Assembly (NCBI GenBank): GCA_029378245.1
Contig: JARKIF010000037.1
Location: 186,001 to 250,000, forward strand
Direction: 5' to 3'
DNA from: Roridomyces roridus
Taxonomy: Eukaryota > Basidiomycota > Agaricomycetes > Agaricales > Mycenaceae
Length of the DNA stretch: 64,000 bases
The notes under the pieces are model-generated. The model saw only the letters and a list, made by a program, of their open reading frames with translations, had not been told where the DNA came from and made no database searches. Positions within the stretch are counted from its first letter, which is position 1. Each line of letters begins with the position of its first letter. Made by a program: the position numbers and the translations under genes. Shown in pieces: positions 11,332-45,997 of this stretch.

Positions 11332-11567
11332 GCTACTACCAGCACTGGTGGCCCGACGAGGATGAGGAGGACCAGATGCTGGTGGACGCGGAGCGGGAGG
11401 TGGGGATGGCGGGAGGGGAGGAGCCCACGCGGCAAGCAGATGATGATGAGGACCACTCGGAGGGCGAGGATGATGAAGCGCATGATGAGCAGGTTTCGGA
11501 CTTGCTCTTCAAGATCGCCGGCCTTGGGATTGATGCGGAGGAACGCGGAGAGAGTATCACAGAGTAA
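11332..11567 (+). pseudogene. Truncated acidic ORF abutting the right end of the KDZ element
   Basis: An open frame of ~78 codons starts right after a stop at the second 'cattataatg' and runs to a TAA at 11,565. It reads 'YYQHWWPDEDEEDQMLVDAE', then an acidic stretch, then 'DLLFKIAGLGIDAEERGE'. The only Met is at 11,376. Composition (Asp/Glu-rich then a hydrophobic helix) looks like the C-terminus of a real protein. Most likely it is the 3' end of a gene cut by the transposon, or a further cargo gene end. The other half would lie left of the window. Confidence 0.4.
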
Positions 11568-12660
11568 AATGTAGTTATTCAAATAATTTCCTTTTTGAGC
11601 TAAGATCATGATGCGGGATCAGTCGGCACGACTTTATTGCGACTCTACTACATGGGACTTGTACTTGGTAAGTCCATACTGGTATATCGCGACTTTATTG
11701 CAGCATTTGTCGCGCTCTTTATCGCGCCATAGGGAACCGGCCTCTATCCCCTCCAATTAGAATGGACACCGCCATGGAATGTCCTCTCCTATTAGAGGGC
11801 ATATATAGGTCCCAGAGGTGAGAGGATTTGGAGGAGCGATGGGAATGTGGCCCGGGGGTGGGGAGCCTGGTCAAAATCGGACATGGTAGAGTCGGTATTT
11901 CGCTTTCTTCCTGCCCTCCTCCATCTCTCACTGCCCCACCCAATTTACCACTGCACCACCATCTGGCCGTTGACCGTGACGCCGGAACTGGGAGGCATCC
12001 TGATTCCTGCGAGTCCCACACCTTCATCTCACGGCTGCACGACGACTCCGAACCGTTCCCGAAGCTCACCTCGTCATCAATCGTGGAGAGGACGACGAAC
12101 CCCCCTGTCTCTGCGTCGTGTGTACGGCGGCGGTATTTTGGTGCCTCTATCCGGGCAGGCGGGCTCAGTGAAAGCGCTCCGAGTCGTGTGTAGCCGCTCC
12201 GAGCACCGGCTCATCCCGTGGATTCCTCCACTAGATTGGATCCTTTTTTCGTACTCTAGACACTGTGTAGATACCATGTAGGTGACTCCAGAAGGCTTCC
12301 TATGTCCTTTTCTCGAGCACAGACGCGCCCGCTCGCGCGACAAAGATAATTTTATCTAGCCGAATTCAATGAAAACGAGATTTGATCGGAGTGGTAACAA
12401 TGCACTCAACATTGATTTCGAGTTTGTTGTTGGCAATATCGCGCCATTTGTTTGCCAGATGCCTCCAAATCACACCGATTGCCAGAGGACCGTGAAGAAG
12501 GTACTATCACCTGCACCCAAAAGTGGTACTTAGTTGTTGTCGAAGAGCACTGGAACCTTTGACGAAGAGCCGCTCTGTGACACTGTACACAAAAACGAGC
12601 AAAAGCCGAAAGGGAGAGATCGCCAGAATGAAGAGACAAAGTGAGCAACACGGGATGCAT
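11568..12660. other. Intergenic stretch without convincing gene
   Basis: Open frames here (for example 11,847-12,281 plus) show no domain and no exon logic. A short direct repeat 'cgactttattgc' occurs at about 11,628 and 11,687. The rest is unremarkable up to the first tRNA-like remnant. Confidence 0.6.
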
Positions 12661-12663
12661 CGA

Positions 12664-12713
12664 TGCTTTGGACAGGAATCGATCCCCCGGCCGACGGGTT
12701 ACCGAAGCAAAGC
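12664..12713 (-). pseudogene. tRNA-Gly-like remnant (minus strand copy 1)
   Basis: Read on the minus strand it begins GCTTTG, contains a T-arm with loop-like 'ATCGATT' between G-rich and C-rich arms, and ends CCAAAGCA. That is the same acceptor stem as the intact tRNA-Gly at 16,782. At ~50 nt it lacks a D-arm and anticodon arm. Confidence 0.6.
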
Positions 12714-12980
12714 AACGCCCGTCGCTGCAAACTGGGATCCAGAAAGCAAGCTTCCATTCCCTAAAAGGAGAGAACACAACCATTGACGCTCCGAGCAAAA
12801 TGACTTGGTCAACCCTGAAACCTCTAAAGAGGATTGAGAATCAAGTAGCCGCTGCGCCGATCCTCTCGAGTTCGAGACTCCCACACCGACATCCCAGGAG
12901 GTACTTCAAGCTCGAGATACGTATCATTAGCAGTCCGGGCAAGAACAAAACAAAAAGCAAACACTATTGGAATCTCAATG

Positions 12981-13035
12981 TCTTGGGGGAATCGAACCCC
13001 CGGACCTTTCCAGCAGCGTTGCAAGCTGGAGAAGT
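12981..13035 (-). pseudogene. tRNA-like remnant (minus strand copy 2)
   Basis: On the minus strand a perfect T-arm (GGGGG-TTCGATT-CCCCC) is followed by AAGAC. It is preceded by a hairpin 'CCAGCTTGCAACGCTG' that resembles an anticodon arm with GCA. No matching 5' acceptor strand is present, so this is a broken copy. Confidence 0.5.
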
Positions 13036-13176
13036 AAGCCAAGCCTGACTTTTTTTATGGATGCAGAGGCACGAGCGGGAAGAATCAAAGCAATCCATTC
13101 GCCTCGGAGGAATTTGAATCTGCCAGCGCACAGGAGAGGTCGAACAAAAAGTTTAAGATTGATCAGAGCGGTTTAT

Positions 13177-13226
13177 GACTTGGCGGGAATCGAACCCCGA
13201 GCGGCTCGTCGTGCCAGCCCCAAAGC
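13177..13226 (-). pseudogene. tRNA-Gly-like remnant (minus strand copy 3)
   Basis: On the minus strand GCTTTGG is followed ~25 nt later by 'CGGGGTTCGATTCCCG' and then CCAAGTC. Acceptor arm and T-arm are retained, the middle is lost, and the 3' acceptor strand is partly mutated relative to CCAAAGC. Confidence 0.55.
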
Positions 13227-13453
13227 AATCCCACAACTCTGAGAAGATGCAGACGAGCACCTACACTTACCCATGCAATGATTCATTCATTCGTTCACCC
13301 TCACCGAGCAGTCCAACGAAAAGCAAGAATCAAGATAGAATAAGAATACGTGTAAACAAAGGTCGGCAACTAAATACCAGTCCATCCAATCCACTCCGTC
13401 AGTTTAGAATATCATACACCTCCCATCGATTCATTGATTCACCCCACTCCACG

Positions 13454-14499
13454 TCATGATGACGAAGACGACGGGCGGGGAGTAGGTGATGAAGATGAAG
13501 AACGGGATATTGACGGTGCGCGTCGGTTTGAGGGTGGGGACGGGCGGCGGTACGTCTGCGGGAGGGTAATCAGTACTGTTTTCTATCAAGAGATGGAGAT
13601 GCAGAAGACGGAGATGATGGAGATGTGGATGGAAGATGGGTGAGCGGGAGAGGTAAATCGGAATCTGATGGCTGCCAGCACAGCGCAGCAGATCACCGCC
13701 GACGAGCACGGCGACGGAGGCCGCACGCCATGACCGACGGGCAGGGCCGGTGCGTCCCTTCCCTGCAGCGGTCATCGGCCCTGCCCGTCGGTCATGCATC
13801 CCCAATCGCATGACGCACGACTCCGCAGAGATTCTCCGTGCCACGTCATCACCAGCTCAGCGGTTCCGTGAAAGAAGCTGCAGCGTCGGCTCCGGGAGGG
13901 TGGGTCCGGCGCCGAGGTAAAGACGGACGGAGTAGATGCGGGAGTACGGGAAGGAGGGAGAACAAAGAAAGAAAGACACGCACATGCCGACTCATAATCA
14001 TCTTGGCCATCGACGCAGGTGGACACGAGTAAAGCGCCGGTAGAGGAGCTTCGACACCGACTCGGAGGTGAGGAGCGAGTGCAGGCTCTGGTCGACGGAC
14101 GGGGCCTGCGCGGGTGGGTGCGCGGCCGTTGGGTAGCGGTAGAGGCATATTAGGTTTTGTCGTAGTGGTAGTCGTAGGCGTTTTGGATTTCGTTTCCATG
14201 ACGGGGACCGGGGCAGCTGGGAGCGTCTCCCATGTGAGGCGTGGCAGCCACGAGAAGCGGCCGTGAGACGCAGTGGGGGTCTCAGCAGCGGGGAGGGCCG
14301 TCTTGGCTGCGACGAGCTTCTCCTGCACCTGAATAGGTACGACGAGTGCTGGACGGGGAAGGAAGCGGCGTGCGAGGGTGAGGAGGATGAGGGAGGCGAG
14401 GAAGGCGAGTGGAAGGCGGAGGGCATGGAGCCACGTGGCGGGCTCGGGCATGCTGGCCAAGGCCACGTCGGTGACGGAGGTGGCTGGTAGGATGAACAT
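13454..14499 (-). CDS. Conserved fungal small single-TM protein, 205 aa (function unknown)
   Basis: Exon 1 (14499-13984) starts 'MFILPATSVTDVALASMPE' and has one hydrophobic helix ('LPLAFLASLILLTLA') near residues 28-45, a Thr/Pro-rich linker, and ends with the conserved-looking 'PASMAKMIMSRH'. Exon 2 (13555-13454) continues in phase as 'TYRRPSPPSNRRAPS' and ends in a Ser run. 'SMAKMIMSRHTYRRP' is a block I recall from uncharacterised agaric proteins, which fixes the join across an intron of 428 nt. Every other intron in the window is about 30-90 nt. The protein is probably a single-pass membrane protein with a cytosolic basic tail (inference). Alternative shorter splicing at 13,878 would give a C-terminus without the TYRRP motif. 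Confidence 0.6.
13729..13796. repeat. Perfect 20-bp inverted repeat inside the long intron
   Basis: Arms 13,729-13,748 and 13,777-13,796 are exact reverse complements (20 of 20) with a 28-nt loop. Transcribed in either direction they form a strong hairpin. The hairpin lies inside the 428-nt intron of the 13,454-14,499 gene. Confidence 0.9.
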
Positions 14500-14985
14500 G
14501 GTCTGGTCTCGCTCGGGATGAGGGATGAGACGGACGGACGGCGTCGACGAGGAAGGGAAGCGACGAGGACGGGGCGTGGGGCGTAGAGGGAAGATCCACG
14601 TATATGTACCGTTGCTTGCCGGTGTTGATCCGGTGTCGACGGTTACCGCCTTCATTATGCCCATGGGAACGGACTTTCATCATCGCAACACATGCTTGCT
14701 TTCCACGACGTTTCTCCCCAGAATTATCCCTCACCTGGTCAGCCCATCCTCATCGTACCTTCTTGCAACGGTCCGTCCGCGCTTCTCTCATCACAAGGCC
14801 GCAGCAACGGCTTTATCTCGCCGGACACACCGCAATTACAATCCAATAATGCTCCGTGGCTGACGCTCTCAATGAATCAAGCATCTTCATTCCCTCGGAC
14901 ACGGCATTTAGCCCCGCCTGCAATCAGCTCCCGCGCTATGCCCTCTAATGTGCCTGCATTTACATCCCCTTGCCGCCGATACACC
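14500..14985. other. Intergenic; nothing convincing
   Basis: Upstream region of the small TM protein. Long frames on the plus strand read into the tRNA-like copy at ~15,010 and are not coding. Confidence 0.5.
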
Positions 14986-15007
14986 CTTGGACGACAGATT
15001 CCTCAGC

Positions 15008-15079
15008 GCCGTGTGGGTCGTTGCCATCACACGAAACACCAGGCGATGGGTGGGTTCGATTCCCTCCAACGCGTTAGCG
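15008..15079 (+). pseudogene. tRNA-Gly(GCC)-like remnant (plus strand)
   Basis: It contains 'GGTCGTTGCCATCACACG', a typical GCC anticodon arm, followed ~20 nt later by a T-arm 'GGGTTCGATTCCC' and 'TCCAACGC'. The 5' acceptor and D-arm are not recognisable. Confidence 0.5.
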
Positions 15080-15340
15080 GAAGTCATGCAGAACTTTTCT
15101 TATTTGGCCCAAACATCCAGTACACCACCAACTCGTGCCGAATTGAGACCGACGTCAAAGCAAGATGTCGTATCAGTGTTTCTTGGTGATGTAAAAATGG
15201 AATAGCCTCGACGTCAATTCGATGTAACTCCCGCAGCGTCGATTTAAGGTGGAAACGACGTCGTATCGAGTACCTCGCCAACGTCTATCTGGGCACACTG
15301 CCCGATGTTATATCAACAATTTTTCAACGGAAGTTCTCCA

Positions 15341-15411
15341 GCGGACTTGCAAGGGGGCATCGGGATCGGAATTTCGGATATAGGGTCGAAAAGTGCCCCC
15401 TTGCGGACTTG
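15341..15411. repeat. Short inverted repeat flanked by direct 9-mers
   Basis: 'gcaagggggca' (15,349-15,359) and its reverse complement (15,394-15,404) form an 11-bp stem with a 34-nt loop. The direct repeat 'gcggacttg' overlaps both outer edges (15,341 and 15,403). Confidence 0.6.
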
Positions 15412-16780
15412 AATGATTTACATGATTAAAAACAGTTTGAATTTTGAGTGTTTGCCTTGTACTTCTAAGTACACGGTAATTTGTGCTGAAGCCAGAACTT
15501 TGTGCACTGTAGGGGGCGCGGCGCGCCTTTGAGCCGAGCTGCGAGCAAGAGCCGAGAGACTCGGGCTGTCATCCGCGCTTGGAAGCGAGGAAGGTTTGTT
15601 GAATGCGCGTGATCAATCACGTGGGTTGGTCAACACTTGTCGTCTCCCACTTCTTTCCTCCTGCCACCACCCACTCCTGCTCGTCAACCGAGCATCAACA
15701 ACTGACCTCGCCTTGGCCCAGCACACCGCCGACCCCACAACACCCTTGCAGTATCCTGTGCTCACCCTGCAAGGCGCCGTCGCTCTTGTCACTCGGACTC
15801 GTGCATGCCAACTCATCGGCGACCTCAAGGCAAACATCCGGGACCTCAAGACAATCACCCTGGTTTCACCTTAGGCATCCACACGCAAGCCGATGAAGCT
15901 CACACTCCTTACTACGTCCTCCGTCCGCCCCACATCCGCCTTCGTGTCGACACGATTCCATGAAGCATGCTCCGAGTCCTCGTTCCCCTTCCCTTCCCTC
16001 CCTTCAATTCCCTTCCCTTCCCTTCCCTCCCTTCCCTCTCTCCCTCTCCCCCTTGGATCCAAGGTCTCTCCTTGTCCTCTCAAGTCACAGTGAGGACGCA
16101 TGCCTGTATACGTACCCTTGACAACGAGCCGATATCTGCAATGCCGGAACCTATACGTAACTCCAGTGCAAGATTTCGGCTGCTAGTTTCCTCAAGCCTC
16201 ACGGAATCCCCGTCACGCCGTGATAACGAACGTCAATGTTCGTGCTTCAACCTCAAGCCACAACTCACCACCCAACCGGCCTACAAATTGCATTCCCAAA
16301 CATTCAGCTCGGGTAACCTTCGGCCGCGTTCTCGTGAGCAGGGCATTAGAGTGTAGATGCTGGGCTGTCTGTCGTATGCACGCTGTTTGTTTCCGTAGCT
16401 TTCCAATCTATTCTTTTCCCTGCATATCGAATGTGTGTGCTTCTGAGAATTATATATATTGATCAATATTCGAGCTCTCCCTGACTGCAGCAACTGCATT
16501 ATTTCGAGGTAAGGAGTCGACATCGATCCGACGTCGGTGTCAATTGACGCTCGAATGTTAGCAGTTTTGACGGGTATTTCGACGTCGGAAGTGTATTAAT
16601 CTGATGTGGCGCAGAATCATCGTTTGACGTTCTCTCCCGACGTCAACTCAACGCGTCTTCGGATCGGTGGTGTACTTACTCTCAACACTCTCTGCTACAT
16701 CCTCTTCCCACTCCCTCCCTTCGACAACCTCTCAACTACCTGTAGTTGACCTGTAATTCCGTCAAATTGTGTTCTCACGC
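15412..16780. other. Intergenic with pyrimidine-rich tract and GACGTC clusters
   Basis: No convincing gene. A C/T-only tract with repeated 'cttcc' units spans about 15,984-16,052. Three GACGTC sites lie in 16,528-16,645; three more lie just upstream at 15,152-15,262. Confidence 0.5.
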
Positions 16781-16781
16781 C

Positions 16782-16878
16782 GCTTTGGTGGGGTAGTGGT
16801 AACCTGGGTTGTTGCCATCGACAAAGAGGGAAGCTATTTCGTCTCGACCCGCCGGGGGTTCGATTCCCTCCCAAAGCA
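16782..16878 (+). tRNA. tRNA-Gly(GCC) with 26-nt intron
   Basis: A full cloverleaf can be drawn. The acceptor GCTTTGG pairs perfectly with CCAAAGC, discriminator A. The D-stem GGGT/ACCT encloses AGTGGTA. The anticodon stem GGTTG/CGACC has loop T-T-GCC-A, interrupted after position 37 by 26 nt (16,818-16,843). The T-arm is GGGGG-TTCGATT-CCCTC. The mature length would be 71 nt, normal for tRNA-Gly. The sequence TCGAC occurs at both the start of the intron and the 3' side of the splice, so the insert could also have arisen by slippage. It heads the forward array of decayed copies. Confidence 0.75.
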
Positions 16879-16899
16879 GTCACTCTTTCCATCTGTTTT

Positions 16900-19110
16900 T
16901 CTCTGGCTTTCTTTCTTTGTTTCTGCACACCCTCCTCTTCCATCTAAGGGCGTCGGTGCCGCCTCTTCGCGAGGACATGTATCGGAATCCTAACCGCAAT
17001 TCGAATCTCGCGCTTGGGTCCTCGGCGTCACTGGGTTTTCGATCTCGACCTTCCAAACAACCGGCTGCGGCTTGTCATGCACCATACACGGGCGGGCTGT
17101 GACTACTCTACGTGCTCACCGATCCGAGCAAAAAACTGTCTGTGCTTTGTCTGCGTCTGAACAATGAGTTCACCCGTTGTGGGTTCGATTCCCTTCCAAA
17201 GCATACTTTGTAGCCCATCAAGTTTTTCTTTCCTCCGCTGTAGCCTCGCCTCCCCTTCTCGCGGCGATGGATGTATCATGCATATGCGAACTGCATTCGA
17301 GTGTCGCGCTTGCGTCCTCGGCGTCGCTGAGTTTGACTACGGATTACTTACAGCCTCATCGATTCCGGACAATCATGCCTAGAGGATTCACTGCCACACT
17401 CGTCTCCGCGCAGGGTTAAGTATTCCAAAATCATCTGTGCTTTGTCTGGTCCTGGGTTACCGACGTCCGACGATGGGTCCTGGCAGCCCGGGTTCGATTC
17501 AATGAACCCCATACGCACTAGACCGATTTGACCTTCCTTTGTTACGCATTCGGGCTTTGGTCGTCGCGGAGTTTCCAATTTTTGGCCATCCACAGAACAG
17601 TCTATGCTTGGGGGCTTCACTGCAATGTTCTCAATTTCCGCACCTCCTTCAAAGTACACCGTCGGGTTATTTCAAAACTGTCTTGTGCAACTGCTTTGTC
17701 GGCCATGGTCGCCGATCAGTCTGCCGGGGGTTCGATTCCCTCCCATAGCATTCCCGATTACCCTTCTTTTTCTCGGGCTTTCTTTGTTTGTTTCTGGACG
17801 CCCTCCAGGGCGTCGGTACCTCCTCTTCGCGAGGACATGTATCGGAATCCTAACCGCAATTCGAATCGAGCGCTTGGGTCTTCGGCGTCGACTACAGACT
17901 TACTCATCGATCCCAGCAATTATGGACGAGTCTCTCTGCTGCTCTGGGTCCCGGCGCGGGTTCGATTCCCTCCCGAAGCATAAGTACGACGAACACATCT
18001 TTTTGTCTTTCTCTTCTATCCTCGGACAACTTCTTACAACCAAATACAAATCAATTTCGCGCTAGCGTCCGTTTGACTCCTCATTGCCACTCAACCGATC
18101 CGGGCAAGCATACCTAGGGAGGGATTCACGCCATTGGTGTGACGATGTAAAAAGATACTTTTCAAAATCCGATCAGGCTTGGCTTTGGCCCACCTCCTTC
18201 GAAATCACTCGGCCGTTTCAACACTGACAGTGTACACTGCAAGTGCTTTGTGTGCCATATTGCATCGCCCGGGGTTCGATTCCCTGCCAAAGCATCAACC
18301 GGCTGTCATTTGACCATCGCTTTTTGGGGATCGGGAAACCACCGGCCCTCTTTCAGTGTCGCCTCCACAAAACCCTTGAACTACCCACCGAGCCGAGCAG
18401 GCATGCCTGAGATGTCCGATTCGATTCCCGCCCAAAGTATAGGGCCTTGATGTCGGCTTTTTTTGCTCTCTTTCTCCGTCAGCCTCATTCACCCAGCGCT
18501 GATCCAATTCCCTCCCCATCGTAAATCTGGGCATCTTTGACCTCGGGGCCTCGGTACCTCCTTTAAATTTTCTTGGGCGAATGCATGATACTGTGACTCC
18601 ATTCGAACTTCGCGCTGGCGTGTGGGTTTTCGGTCGTTGGCCATTCATACACCGTACACCGACGCGGGCCTTTGACTGCGCGCTCACCGATCCGAGCAGC
18701 ATGATTCACTGCACTACACTGCTCTCGATTTGTACTTACACCTCCTTCCATAACTAGGCAGGGTTACTCCAGAACTGTCTGTGCATGAACGGGGGTTCGA
18801 ATCCCTCCCAAAGCATACTGGGCTATGCTTTGTGGTCTTCCTTTTTCTCCCTCTCTTGAGCCTCGGCAAGCTCTCTTCGCCTACCACTTCAATTCCCCCT
18901 CCGTATCCACGAAACCGGATCTTTGTACACCATACACCGCAGGGGATTTGACTGTGCGCTCACCGACCCCAGCAAGCATTCATTCCACTGCTCTGAATCC
19001 CCACACCTCCTTCGAAAGGACCACGCAGGGTTATTCCAAAATTGGTGCTGCTTTGTCTGCGTCTCGGTGGCCGCCGGGGGTTCGATTCCCACCGAAGCAT
19101 TGACTCTTGC
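16900..19110 (+). repeat. Degenerate tandem array of tRNA-Gly-derived units
   Basis: Unit ends with 'GGTTCGATTCCC' plus CCAAAGCA or close variants recur near 17,205, 17,470-17,500, 17,750, 17,980, 18,296, 18,440, 18,816 and 19,100. Most are preceded at ~50-60 nt by GCTTTGT. Between them lies shared filler: 'accgatccgagca' (17,119; 18,097; 18,389; 18,687; 18,962; 19,217), a 'tccttcgaaa...gcagggttattccaaaactg' type segment before each tRNA part, and an 80-bp block seen at 16,947 and 17,812 ('cttcgcgaggacatgtatcg'). Units are 200-350 bp and clearly diverged from each other. Most lack D- and anticodon arms, so they are not functional tRNAs. Confidence 0.75.
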
Positions 19111-19541
19111 TCCTCCGGGTTTGCCTTTTTCGCATACCTTGTTGTCGATGCATTTCCGCAGGCTCCTGAATATTGAGTCCTGATCCTCACCACATTCGAC
19201 TGACTCCCATCCTCCGCACCCCGCCCGATCCGAGCATCCTGAATTCGAATTCCCACACAACCCGAGCCGACGTCGCGGCGCCTTGATTTGCGTAGCTTGT
19301 CTAATGTCGCGCTTCTGGGGCCTGCGTTAACCCTCGTAAGGCAGCTGGCCCCACCGACTTGATTTTTTTCTACACATCGAGCAGCCAGGAGAATTGATTC
19401 GCACATGTCCCTCCCCTTCCCTTCGACAGCCCTGGACAAGGCAGGGTTATTTCGAAACTGGTTATGTAAGATGCTTTCCGGCCCTATCCACTCGTGGATG
19501 GAGAAAGAAAATGAGACAGAGCCAGCGGGAGCAAAAGAATT

Positions 19542-19645
19542 TGATTGGAGTGGGATTCGAACCCACGCCCGTGAAGACCAGAATAGTTGCATCTGCAAGA
19601 TGCTGGTCCTGAATCTGGCGCCTTAGACCACTCGGCCATCCAACC
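19542..19645 (-). tRNA. tRNA-Leu(CAG) with intron
   Basis: On the minus strand the acceptor GGTTGGA pairs with TCCAATC (one G-T), discriminator A. The D-arm is GCC-GAGTGGTCTAA-GGC. The anticodon stem CCAGA/TCTGG has loop TTCAGG, giving anticodon CAG, with an intron of about 24 nt after position 37. A longer class II variable region follows, then a T-arm GTGGG-TTCGAAT-CCCAC. The intron plus anticodon arm can extend the pairing (ACCAGCATCTTGCAGATG), as is usual for intron-containing tRNA-Leu. Confidence 0.9.
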
Positions 19646-45055: not shown

Positions 45056-45866
45056 GAGACACTGGGTTCCCTCAGCGATTCGTCCCGGAAAGTGGGACTA
45101 TGAACTCACCTGCAATCAGGCTCCGGTGGTTCGAATCCACCCAGTGACATTCCAATGTATCGATCCTCCATCCTTTTTTTTGAGGTCCCCGCTTGGACCG
45201 GCGCTACCCAGTGGCGGCACGGGTGAGTTGGGAACGGCGCTCGATGGGCACGCGTTTTCGGGAGATGGTCAATACATAGATGGAGATGACCGTCGGTGAA
45301 ATATGTTGGTAATTTCATAATACTCACCTAGACTCACCTCATCCTACTCATTTCTCGCTCTGGACGTCTCAGGTATGGTGGTTCGACTCCACTCCGGGAC
45401 ATTCGAAATGTTCGAAGCGTTTTTCAAAAAAGGTCTAGTGGGCGCTTCTAACAATCATAATTCATCACCCGGGGAAGGTGCTCAGAGGAACTCACCACAA
45501 ACAAAATTGCAGCCCAACTTACTCTCATCCTGTCGAAAAATTCACTGGAACCGTCGAACCAAAATGTAGGAGTCGAAATCAACAAAAGCGCGGTGAGTTA
45601 CCACTAGGAACTTGATCGGCATGTGCACTATCGTCTTGAGGCCGAGTGGTTCGACTCCACCCAGTGACACTGAGGGATTGAGACGGAAGTCATTGATTTT
45701 TTGTTCACTACAGGATCGAGTGTTTTTGGCGATACGGCGATCGTCGATGTCAGAAGGTGGTGGTAAAGATGGGGGTGGTCCCATTGAGTAGGTACTCGCC
45801 TCCGCACCGTCGTCCTGCTCAGTATCGCTCTGGAGGTCTGGTGGTTCGACTCCACCCTGGAACATT
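45056..45866 (+). repeat. Second cluster of tRNA-like (Ser/Leu type) remnants, four copies
   Basis: T-arm plus acceptor ends occur at 45,126-45,150, 45,374-45,401, 45,643-45,668 and 45,838-45,865. The common form is 'GGTGGTTCGA', then 'TCCACCC', then GTGACA or GGAACA. Copy 1 has a possible 5' strand GACACTG at ~45,056, pairing 6 of 7 with CAGTGAC. Copy 3 has 'GGCCGAGTGGTTCGACTCC', in which a class II D-arm runs straight into the T-arm. Copies 2 and 4 also share flanks ('gctctgga.gtct' before; 'ttcatcacccg' ~100 bp after), so the unit is larger than the tRNA part. Confidence 0.65.
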
Positions 45867-45997
45867 GTAAATTGAGTTTGCGCCCATTTTTATCGAAGGT
45901 CTACTTGACGCTTTCAAAAATGATTCATCACCCGAGCAATATGTAGGAACTCACCAAATTTCATCCCACCAAATCGCATCCTTCTCGACAAACCCAC

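Follow-up and report, generated by a model that had tools for sequence, protein, structure and literature searches.

A tandem array of tRNA-Gly(GCC)-derived units in Roridomyces roridus, most of which may remain RNA polymerase III units in outline

tRNA pseudogenes are generally regarded as debris. Does this also describe the tRNA-Gly-like units that are crowded between 12.66 and 19.10 kb of a 64,000-nucleotide stretch of the Roridomyces roridus genome (C301:186001-250000, referred to here in its full length as the window)? Based on an analysis of the window and a scan of the whole assembly (90.8 Mb in 501 contigs, to which all C-numbers refer), we propose that the array consists of locally duplicated tRNA-Gly(GCC) units, most of which are still predicted RNA polymerase III (Pol III)/TFIIIC units with constrained promoter parts, a reading that we hold with middling confidence.

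A preliminary description of the window had reported about a dozen decaying tRNA-Gly-like units in both orientations. Scanning 12.6-19.2 kb with GGTTCGATTCC at no more than one mismatch, we counted 13 tRNA-Gly-type 3′ ends within 12.66-19.10 kb, three on the minus strand (sites 12675, 12988 and 13186) and ten on the plus strand (15053, 16857, 17182, 17491, 17729, 17959, 18273, 18418, 18794 and 19079), which bears out both the number and the two orientations; allowing two mismatches adds 12750, which is not a unit and was excluded. The plus-strand units are spaced 145-376 bp apart, save for a single gap of 1.8 kb, and a 1.5 kb repeat (15162-16675; 85% identity to C223:7863-9274) separates the unit at 15053 from the main plus-strand cluster. 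At 16782-16878 on the plus strand the array includes an intact, intron-bearing tRNA-Gly(GCC) gene, the intron following position 37. ARAGORN reads a gcc anticodon and a 26-nt intron there (another ARAGORN run called Asp), and the Rfam tRNA model scores it at 44.7 bits. It is the only unit of the 13 that possesses a D-arm, anticodon arm, T-arm and acceptor together, as a functional tRNA gene does, and it is the likely founder of the array. The tRNA-Gly origin given in the preliminary description is right, with the correction that one of the 13 units is intact.

As originally described, most units have kept the acceptor and T-arm and lost the middle. The 3′ acceptor CCAAAGCAT is matched at 7 or more of its 9 positions at 12 of the 13 sites (11 of the 12 derived units), compared with 0.66% of random places in the window (n=5000). 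The 5′ acceptor strand, TGCTTTG, is found 19-43 nt upstream of the T-arm at 7 of the 13 sites, all of them derived (7/12), with 0.012 expected per unit; the intact gene reads GCTTTG instead, at the normal distance. The anticodon arm is retained at 2/13 sites, being gone from 11 of the 12 derived units, and the D-arm at 1/13, being gone from all 12.

The terminator also persists. A run of at least five T (T5) lies downstream of 10/13 sites (9/12 derived); chance positions on the same strand of this region have one in 7.4% of cases, and an upstream window has it at 1/13 sites. The array T5 begins 17-27 nt from the discriminator base. Intact tRNA-Gly genes, counting the one in the window, show it 17-30 nt past that base in 8 of 10 different flanks. 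Further, over 10 array stretches T5 occurs no more than 55 nt from the acceptor end at 70 of 90 B-box sites versus 10.4% of random places. In most units, then, the parts required for decoding have gone, and what is left comprises the 3′ promoter box, acceptor ends and a terminator positioned as in the parent gene.

Unit by unit, the minus strand carries TGCTTTG, a 19-nt middle, a T-arm with one B-box mismatch and CCAAAGCAT, with neither T5 nor T4, in unit 1 (12663-12717); a T-arm/acceptor end with T5 downstream in unit 2 (12979-13053), whose paralogue on C458 (L077) has a damaged B box; and TGCTTTG, a 21-nt middle, a T-arm, CCAAGTCAT and T5 in unit 3 (13177-13228), whose C458 paralogue retains the CCAAAGCAT lost from the window copy. 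On the plus strand, unit 4 (15011-15076) has kept the anticodon arm at 14/14 positions and the T-arm, with no D-arm and T4 only. Beyond the intact gene, TGCTTTG, a middle, the T-arm, an acceptor end and T5 follow one another in unit 6 (17142-17228; 29-nt middle, CCAAAGCAT), unit 8 (17692-17772; 27 nt, CCATAGCAT), unit 10 (18243-18325; 19 nt, CCAAAGCAT) and unit 13 (19048-19130; 20 nt, CCGAAGCAT). Unit 9 (17937-18004) has a T-arm, CCGAAGCAT and T5, unit 11 (18411-18464) a T-arm with one B-box mismatch, CCAAAGTAT and T7, and unit 12 (18780-18846) a T-arm, CCAAAGCAT and T5. The most decayed is unit 7 (17436-17513), in which TGCTTTG is present, the 3′ end is gone and there is no T5.

How did so many copies come to lie together? 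The preliminary description had left the choice between a tRNA-derived short interspersed nuclear element (SINE) amplified in tandem and a segmentally duplicated tRNA locus, for units that share non-tRNA filler. Common filler is indeed present, in the ungapped families D4, D5, D8, D9, D13, D14, D16 and D20; D4 spans 83 nt at 94% identity (16947 vs 17807) and the others reach 67-90%. Among plus-strand unit pairs, the filler homology of 11/36 surpasses the highest-scoring of 40 shuffles by a factor of more than 1.15, and that of the remaining 25/36 does not. Such common filler makes independent SINE insertion unlikely. When a 239-nt unit was used as a whole-genome query, it matched itself and one array neighbour and nothing else, contrary to the expectation for a SINE, and the plus-strand cluster as a DNA query matched outside the array just a 54-bp repeat inside one unit (few candidates scored). 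Since whole-unit and cluster queries find almost nothing outside the array, local tandem duplication is indicated rather than a dispersed SINE, which we reject on the absence of dispersed unit copies in these two queries, target-site duplications not having been looked for; a segmentally duplicated tRNA locus fits the sequence better. The 54-bp repeat itself, at 18137-18190 in the filler of one unit, recurs at 22 other genomic places with 83-100% identity. The minus-strand units at 12988 and 13186 are inside a block at 12.8-14.6 kb that has paralogues on C458 and C157 (76-92% identity), and the assembly comparisons revealed no second, allelic partner for the array in the window.

Genome-wide counts of tRNA-Gly halves add to the evidence that decay is only part of the picture. 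Using ungapped patterns over the whole assembly, which halves with insertions or deletions escape, we found 12 perfect tRNA-Gly 5′ halves, none with one or two mismatches and 13 with three; every one of the 12 perfect 5′ halves has a 3′ half nearby. The 3′ halves comprise 10 perfect copies and 15 with one mismatch, and 13 of these 25 are without a 5′ half.

Tandem arrays of tRNA-derived units recur in the genome. The assembly contains 700 occurrences of the pattern GGGTTCGANTCCC, genuine tRNA genes included, compared with 7 of the reversed control pattern. Among the first 100 sites listed, 39 have a neighbour at most 1 kb away, where 1.5% would be expected, and 48 are on C13. A second pattern, GTGGTTCGANTCCAC, occurs 73 times versus 0 for its control, and forms the T-arm of a second array in the window (45060-45910, plus strand), in which each of the four units is followed by a T5 run. 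A third T-arm/acceptor type is found at 81 places with up to three mismatches, against 1 for the control; with up to two mismatches, 38 of 40 places are on C179, C201, C224 and C279. ARAGORN finds 4 genes in 11 such loci and the Rfam tRNA model exceeds its cut-off once in 8, and annotation based on the cloverleaf overlooks most of these units. The same seven-unit array was seen on C265:22158-24799 and C423:138470-141112, with spacings equal but for one base, and these two are probably haplotypes.

Two arrays of another family, with 9 units on C79 and 7 on C423, were compared with each other in parts that had played no role in locating or anchoring the units. Identity is 0.90 in the 5′ acceptor strand (shuffled 0.42), 0.81 on the 3′ side of the D-arm (0.49), 0.86 in the 8 nt preceding the B box (0.49) and 0.80 in the 11 nt following it (0.44). 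The 30-nt middle (0.36, shuffled 0.35) and the 15-nt tail (0.30, shuffled 0.33), by comparison, are random. In the flanks, 60 nt upstream agree at 43% vs 40% and 60 nt downstream, T run included, at 45% vs 36%; here the A block was anchored by the unit-locating motif, and the comparison above, on unanchored parts, had the same outcome. The A block is present at 16/16 exact B boxes of the two loci. In this family, then, the tRNA framing is held and the centre drifts. A guide or antisense role for the variable centres was considered and rejected, as searches with the C79 array and with the window cluster (E ≤ 10; 9 and 23 candidates scored, a weak test) gave no copies of the centres outside the arrays.

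Cumulatively, our findings suggest the following course of events for the window array. A tRNA-Gly(GCC) gene was copied in place, along with flanking sequence, until the cluster numbered 13 units; 12 of them lost decoding, and most of these would have stayed Pol III units in outline, with a B box in the T-arm, acceptor ends and T5 at about the parental distance. TFIIIC would putatively still be bound at the B boxes of the derived units, and Pol III would yield short (~80 nt), non-decoding tRNA-like RNAs that terminate at the T runs; the predicted transcripts would start near TGCTTTG and end at CCAAAGCA or at the T run (units 17182, 18273 and 19079). Judged from sequence, such TFIIIC binding and Pol III transcription are the most likely state of the derived units, and we infer selection on Pol III engagement as the cause of the retention in this array. 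The cluster would then be one of several tRNA-derived arrays of R. roridus that hold on to their promoter and terminator parts while the remainder drifts.

A number of observations weigh against this interpretation. The B box matches GGTTCGANTCC exactly in 10/13 units and with one mismatch in the other three, but the units were located by their B box, so that its conservation is built in and not independent. No A box is demonstrable in the window units by a generic consensus scan, an uninformative one that puts even the intact gene at background. The T5 distance is a trait of tRNA-Gly and not general to tRNAs here: other tRNA loci, almost entirely members of a single Ile family, have T4 no further than 11 nt away in 22 of the 24 flanks sampled and T5 in only 3. 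The units at 17491, 12675 and 15053 are plainly decayed, and to these the word 'decaying' of the preliminary description applies, whereas most units still have their acceptor ends, B box and terminator. On the minus strand, the core of two of the three units departs from that of the C458 paralogue, one B box of which is damaged, as neutral decay predicts. The 14 unit folds do not agree with one another, z ranging from −2.2 to +1.2, three mis-cut entries among them (L077:205-257, L074:4442-4508 and window 45063-45149) saying nothing, and a consistent RNA fold across the window units was not found in this set. Finally, where filler homology is detectable, filler and core are about equally diverged, with identities of 0.825 vs 0.797 in the window, 0.841 vs 0.869 in C79 and 0.849 vs 0.842 in C423, keeping in mind that the filler values are best local matches from such pairs only and hence biased upward.

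This near-equality is the reason why, taking the window array by itself, a cluster that had a middle-less founder and then decayed neutrally is possible. On that account a tRNA-Gly locus was duplicated in tandem, a founder copy lost its middle early and was spread by further duplication, the T runs and acceptor ends are remnants, and the whole decays without function; the single intact gene beside 12 degraded units, the visible decay in the three units named above and in the C458 paralogue, and the mixed folds all agree with it. It is less easily squared with T5 at 10/13 sites, for which P is ~0.005 on the assumption that every T was retained at the filler rate (p = 0.38), or with the 70/90 over 10 stretches, although the units are related and the trials are not independent. 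The 5′ acceptor strand is moreover retained in 7/12 derivatives despite their differing middles, and framing parts are conserved between arrays with random middles, though in another family. We regard neutral decay as possible but on the unlikely side.

By analogy with the boundary elements of fission yeast, the array might instead be a site at which TFIIIC alone acts through many B boxes, as a chromatin boundary or chromosome-organising site, with RNA not being the product. The occurrence of many B boxes in both orientations, the dispensable 5′ halves, the outer T-stem pair broken in 8/13 units (a one-base deletion may account for some) and the want of a consistent fold suit this proposal, and multiple TFIIIC-binding B boxes are reported for fission-yeast boundary elements (PMC6829894). 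Such a site would, however, have no need of the T5 terminators and acceptor ends that are retained beyond the B box, and we think it improbable.

Could the units be genes for a structured tRNA-like RNA, a minihelix of acceptor and T-arm resembling MALAT1 mascRNA, that are maintained for its fold or for RNase P/RNase Z processing? Both acceptor strands are retained around middles of 19-43 nt, and two units fold into acceptor, hairpin and T-arm (17142-17204, z −2.0; 18244-18295, z −0.8). The mascRNA model (Rfam RF01684) matches at 18245 and 19049, weakly (18.3 and 17.8 bits, below the gathering threshold of 42.5). For the C79/C423 family, a drawn cloverleaf pairs 88% of cells, compared with 31-57% for slid versions. 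Shuffling the 3′ letters, however, gives a mean pairing of 87.0%, with 13/500 shuffles reaching 88%, a result that also tells against our preferred reading; because shuffles nearly equal the drawn value, it reflects conservation more than covariation. The covariation itself is weak (30/500 shuffles reach the score), and RNAalifold recovers the D-stem and T-stem only, with both sides changed in 0/10 pairs. Keeping in mind also the spread of z over the 14 folds and that a strong acceptor partner exists at only 26/95 array sites (1-15% with swapping), we consider a minihelix gene family very improbable.

The interpretation that we favour, of derived units that would still engage Pol III, has partial counterparts elsewhere. 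ZOD1 of yeast is described as an ancient tRNA-Ile gene with weak Pol III transcription (PMC5356446). Such relic tRNA genes resemble the present units in being tRNA-derived, with decoding gone and Pol III promoter parts retained, but they are isolated, whereas R. roridus has a tandem array of 13 and several further arrays, known here from their sequence. Fission-yeast TFIIIC boundary elements and the chromosome-organising clamp (COC) and extra TFIIIC (ETC) sites share B-box clusters with the array (PMC6829894); in R. roridus the B boxes are within tRNA 3′ ends, mostly with T5, in tandem units with common filler. SINEs and SINE-derived satellites have a tRNA-derived Pol III promoter and can turn tandem (PMC10702118), and differ in that no dispersed copies of our units were found. 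Helenus terminal-repeat retrotransposons in miniature (TRIM), long terminal repeat (LTR) elements with a tRNA-like sequence in the LTR (PMC10886601), are likewise fungal, with conservation around promoter motifs; the array units differ in sharing filler head to tail, LTRs not having been searched for in the array. Arrays of this kind in mushrooms were not found in the literature searched, which left most subscription papers and all preprints outside its coverage. tRNA-derived Pol III units as such are known; no account of their arrangement in tandem arrays was met in the fungal literature covered.

Some neighbouring features were also recorded. ARAGORN identified 24 near-identical tRNA-Ile(UAU)-like sequences (L003, L010-L032; e.g. 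G000:C2:1506949 and C68:360487). The 15 loci that were compared have a common unit of ~120 bp, TGTTG...CAACA, and differing flanks, and some are paired 243 bp apart. The element has the look of a Helenus-type LTR retrotransposon whose LTR contains the tRNA; the word Mycena is absent from the Helenus paper (PMC10886601), in which Roridomyces was not looked for. Just past the array, at 19542-19645 on the minus strand, lies a tRNA gene that ARAGORN calls Met(cat), and because of its long variable arm and TTCAGGA loop the sequence suggests an intron-bearing tRNA-Leu(CAG). A 24-nt inverted repeat (13729-13796; 20 nt between arms, 96% complementary) lies in the minus-strand region near the open frame 13849-14676. 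The repeat at 11351-11821 has copies of 99-100% identity on C90, C56, C151, C491 and C124, each at most ~21 kb from a contig end, and weaker ones elsewhere, and is perhaps subtelomeric. A protein of the window with a DUF6535 domain matches FB45DRAFT_1010133 of Roridomyces roridus at 100% identity. With vault RNA in mind, major vault protein (PF01505) was looked for and had no match in R. roridus, but none in any control genome either, which makes the search uninformative.

What might such arrays mean for the organism? More tentatively than for the window array, we suggest that R. roridus may harbour hundreds of putative Pol III genes that derive from tRNAs but do not decode, grouped into tandem arrays belonging to several families. 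Selection would act on their A and B blocks, on the acceptor ends and on the terminators, and a centre of 20-45 nt would be free to change, the genes serving either as fast-diversifying small RNAs or as a genome-wide TFIIIC-organising system. If promoter and terminator parts do persist over long divergence without decoding, this would show the worth of TFIIIC/Pol III engagement alone, and the arrays, if the proposal is true, would supply mushrooms either with small RNAs from a new source or with a boundary system.

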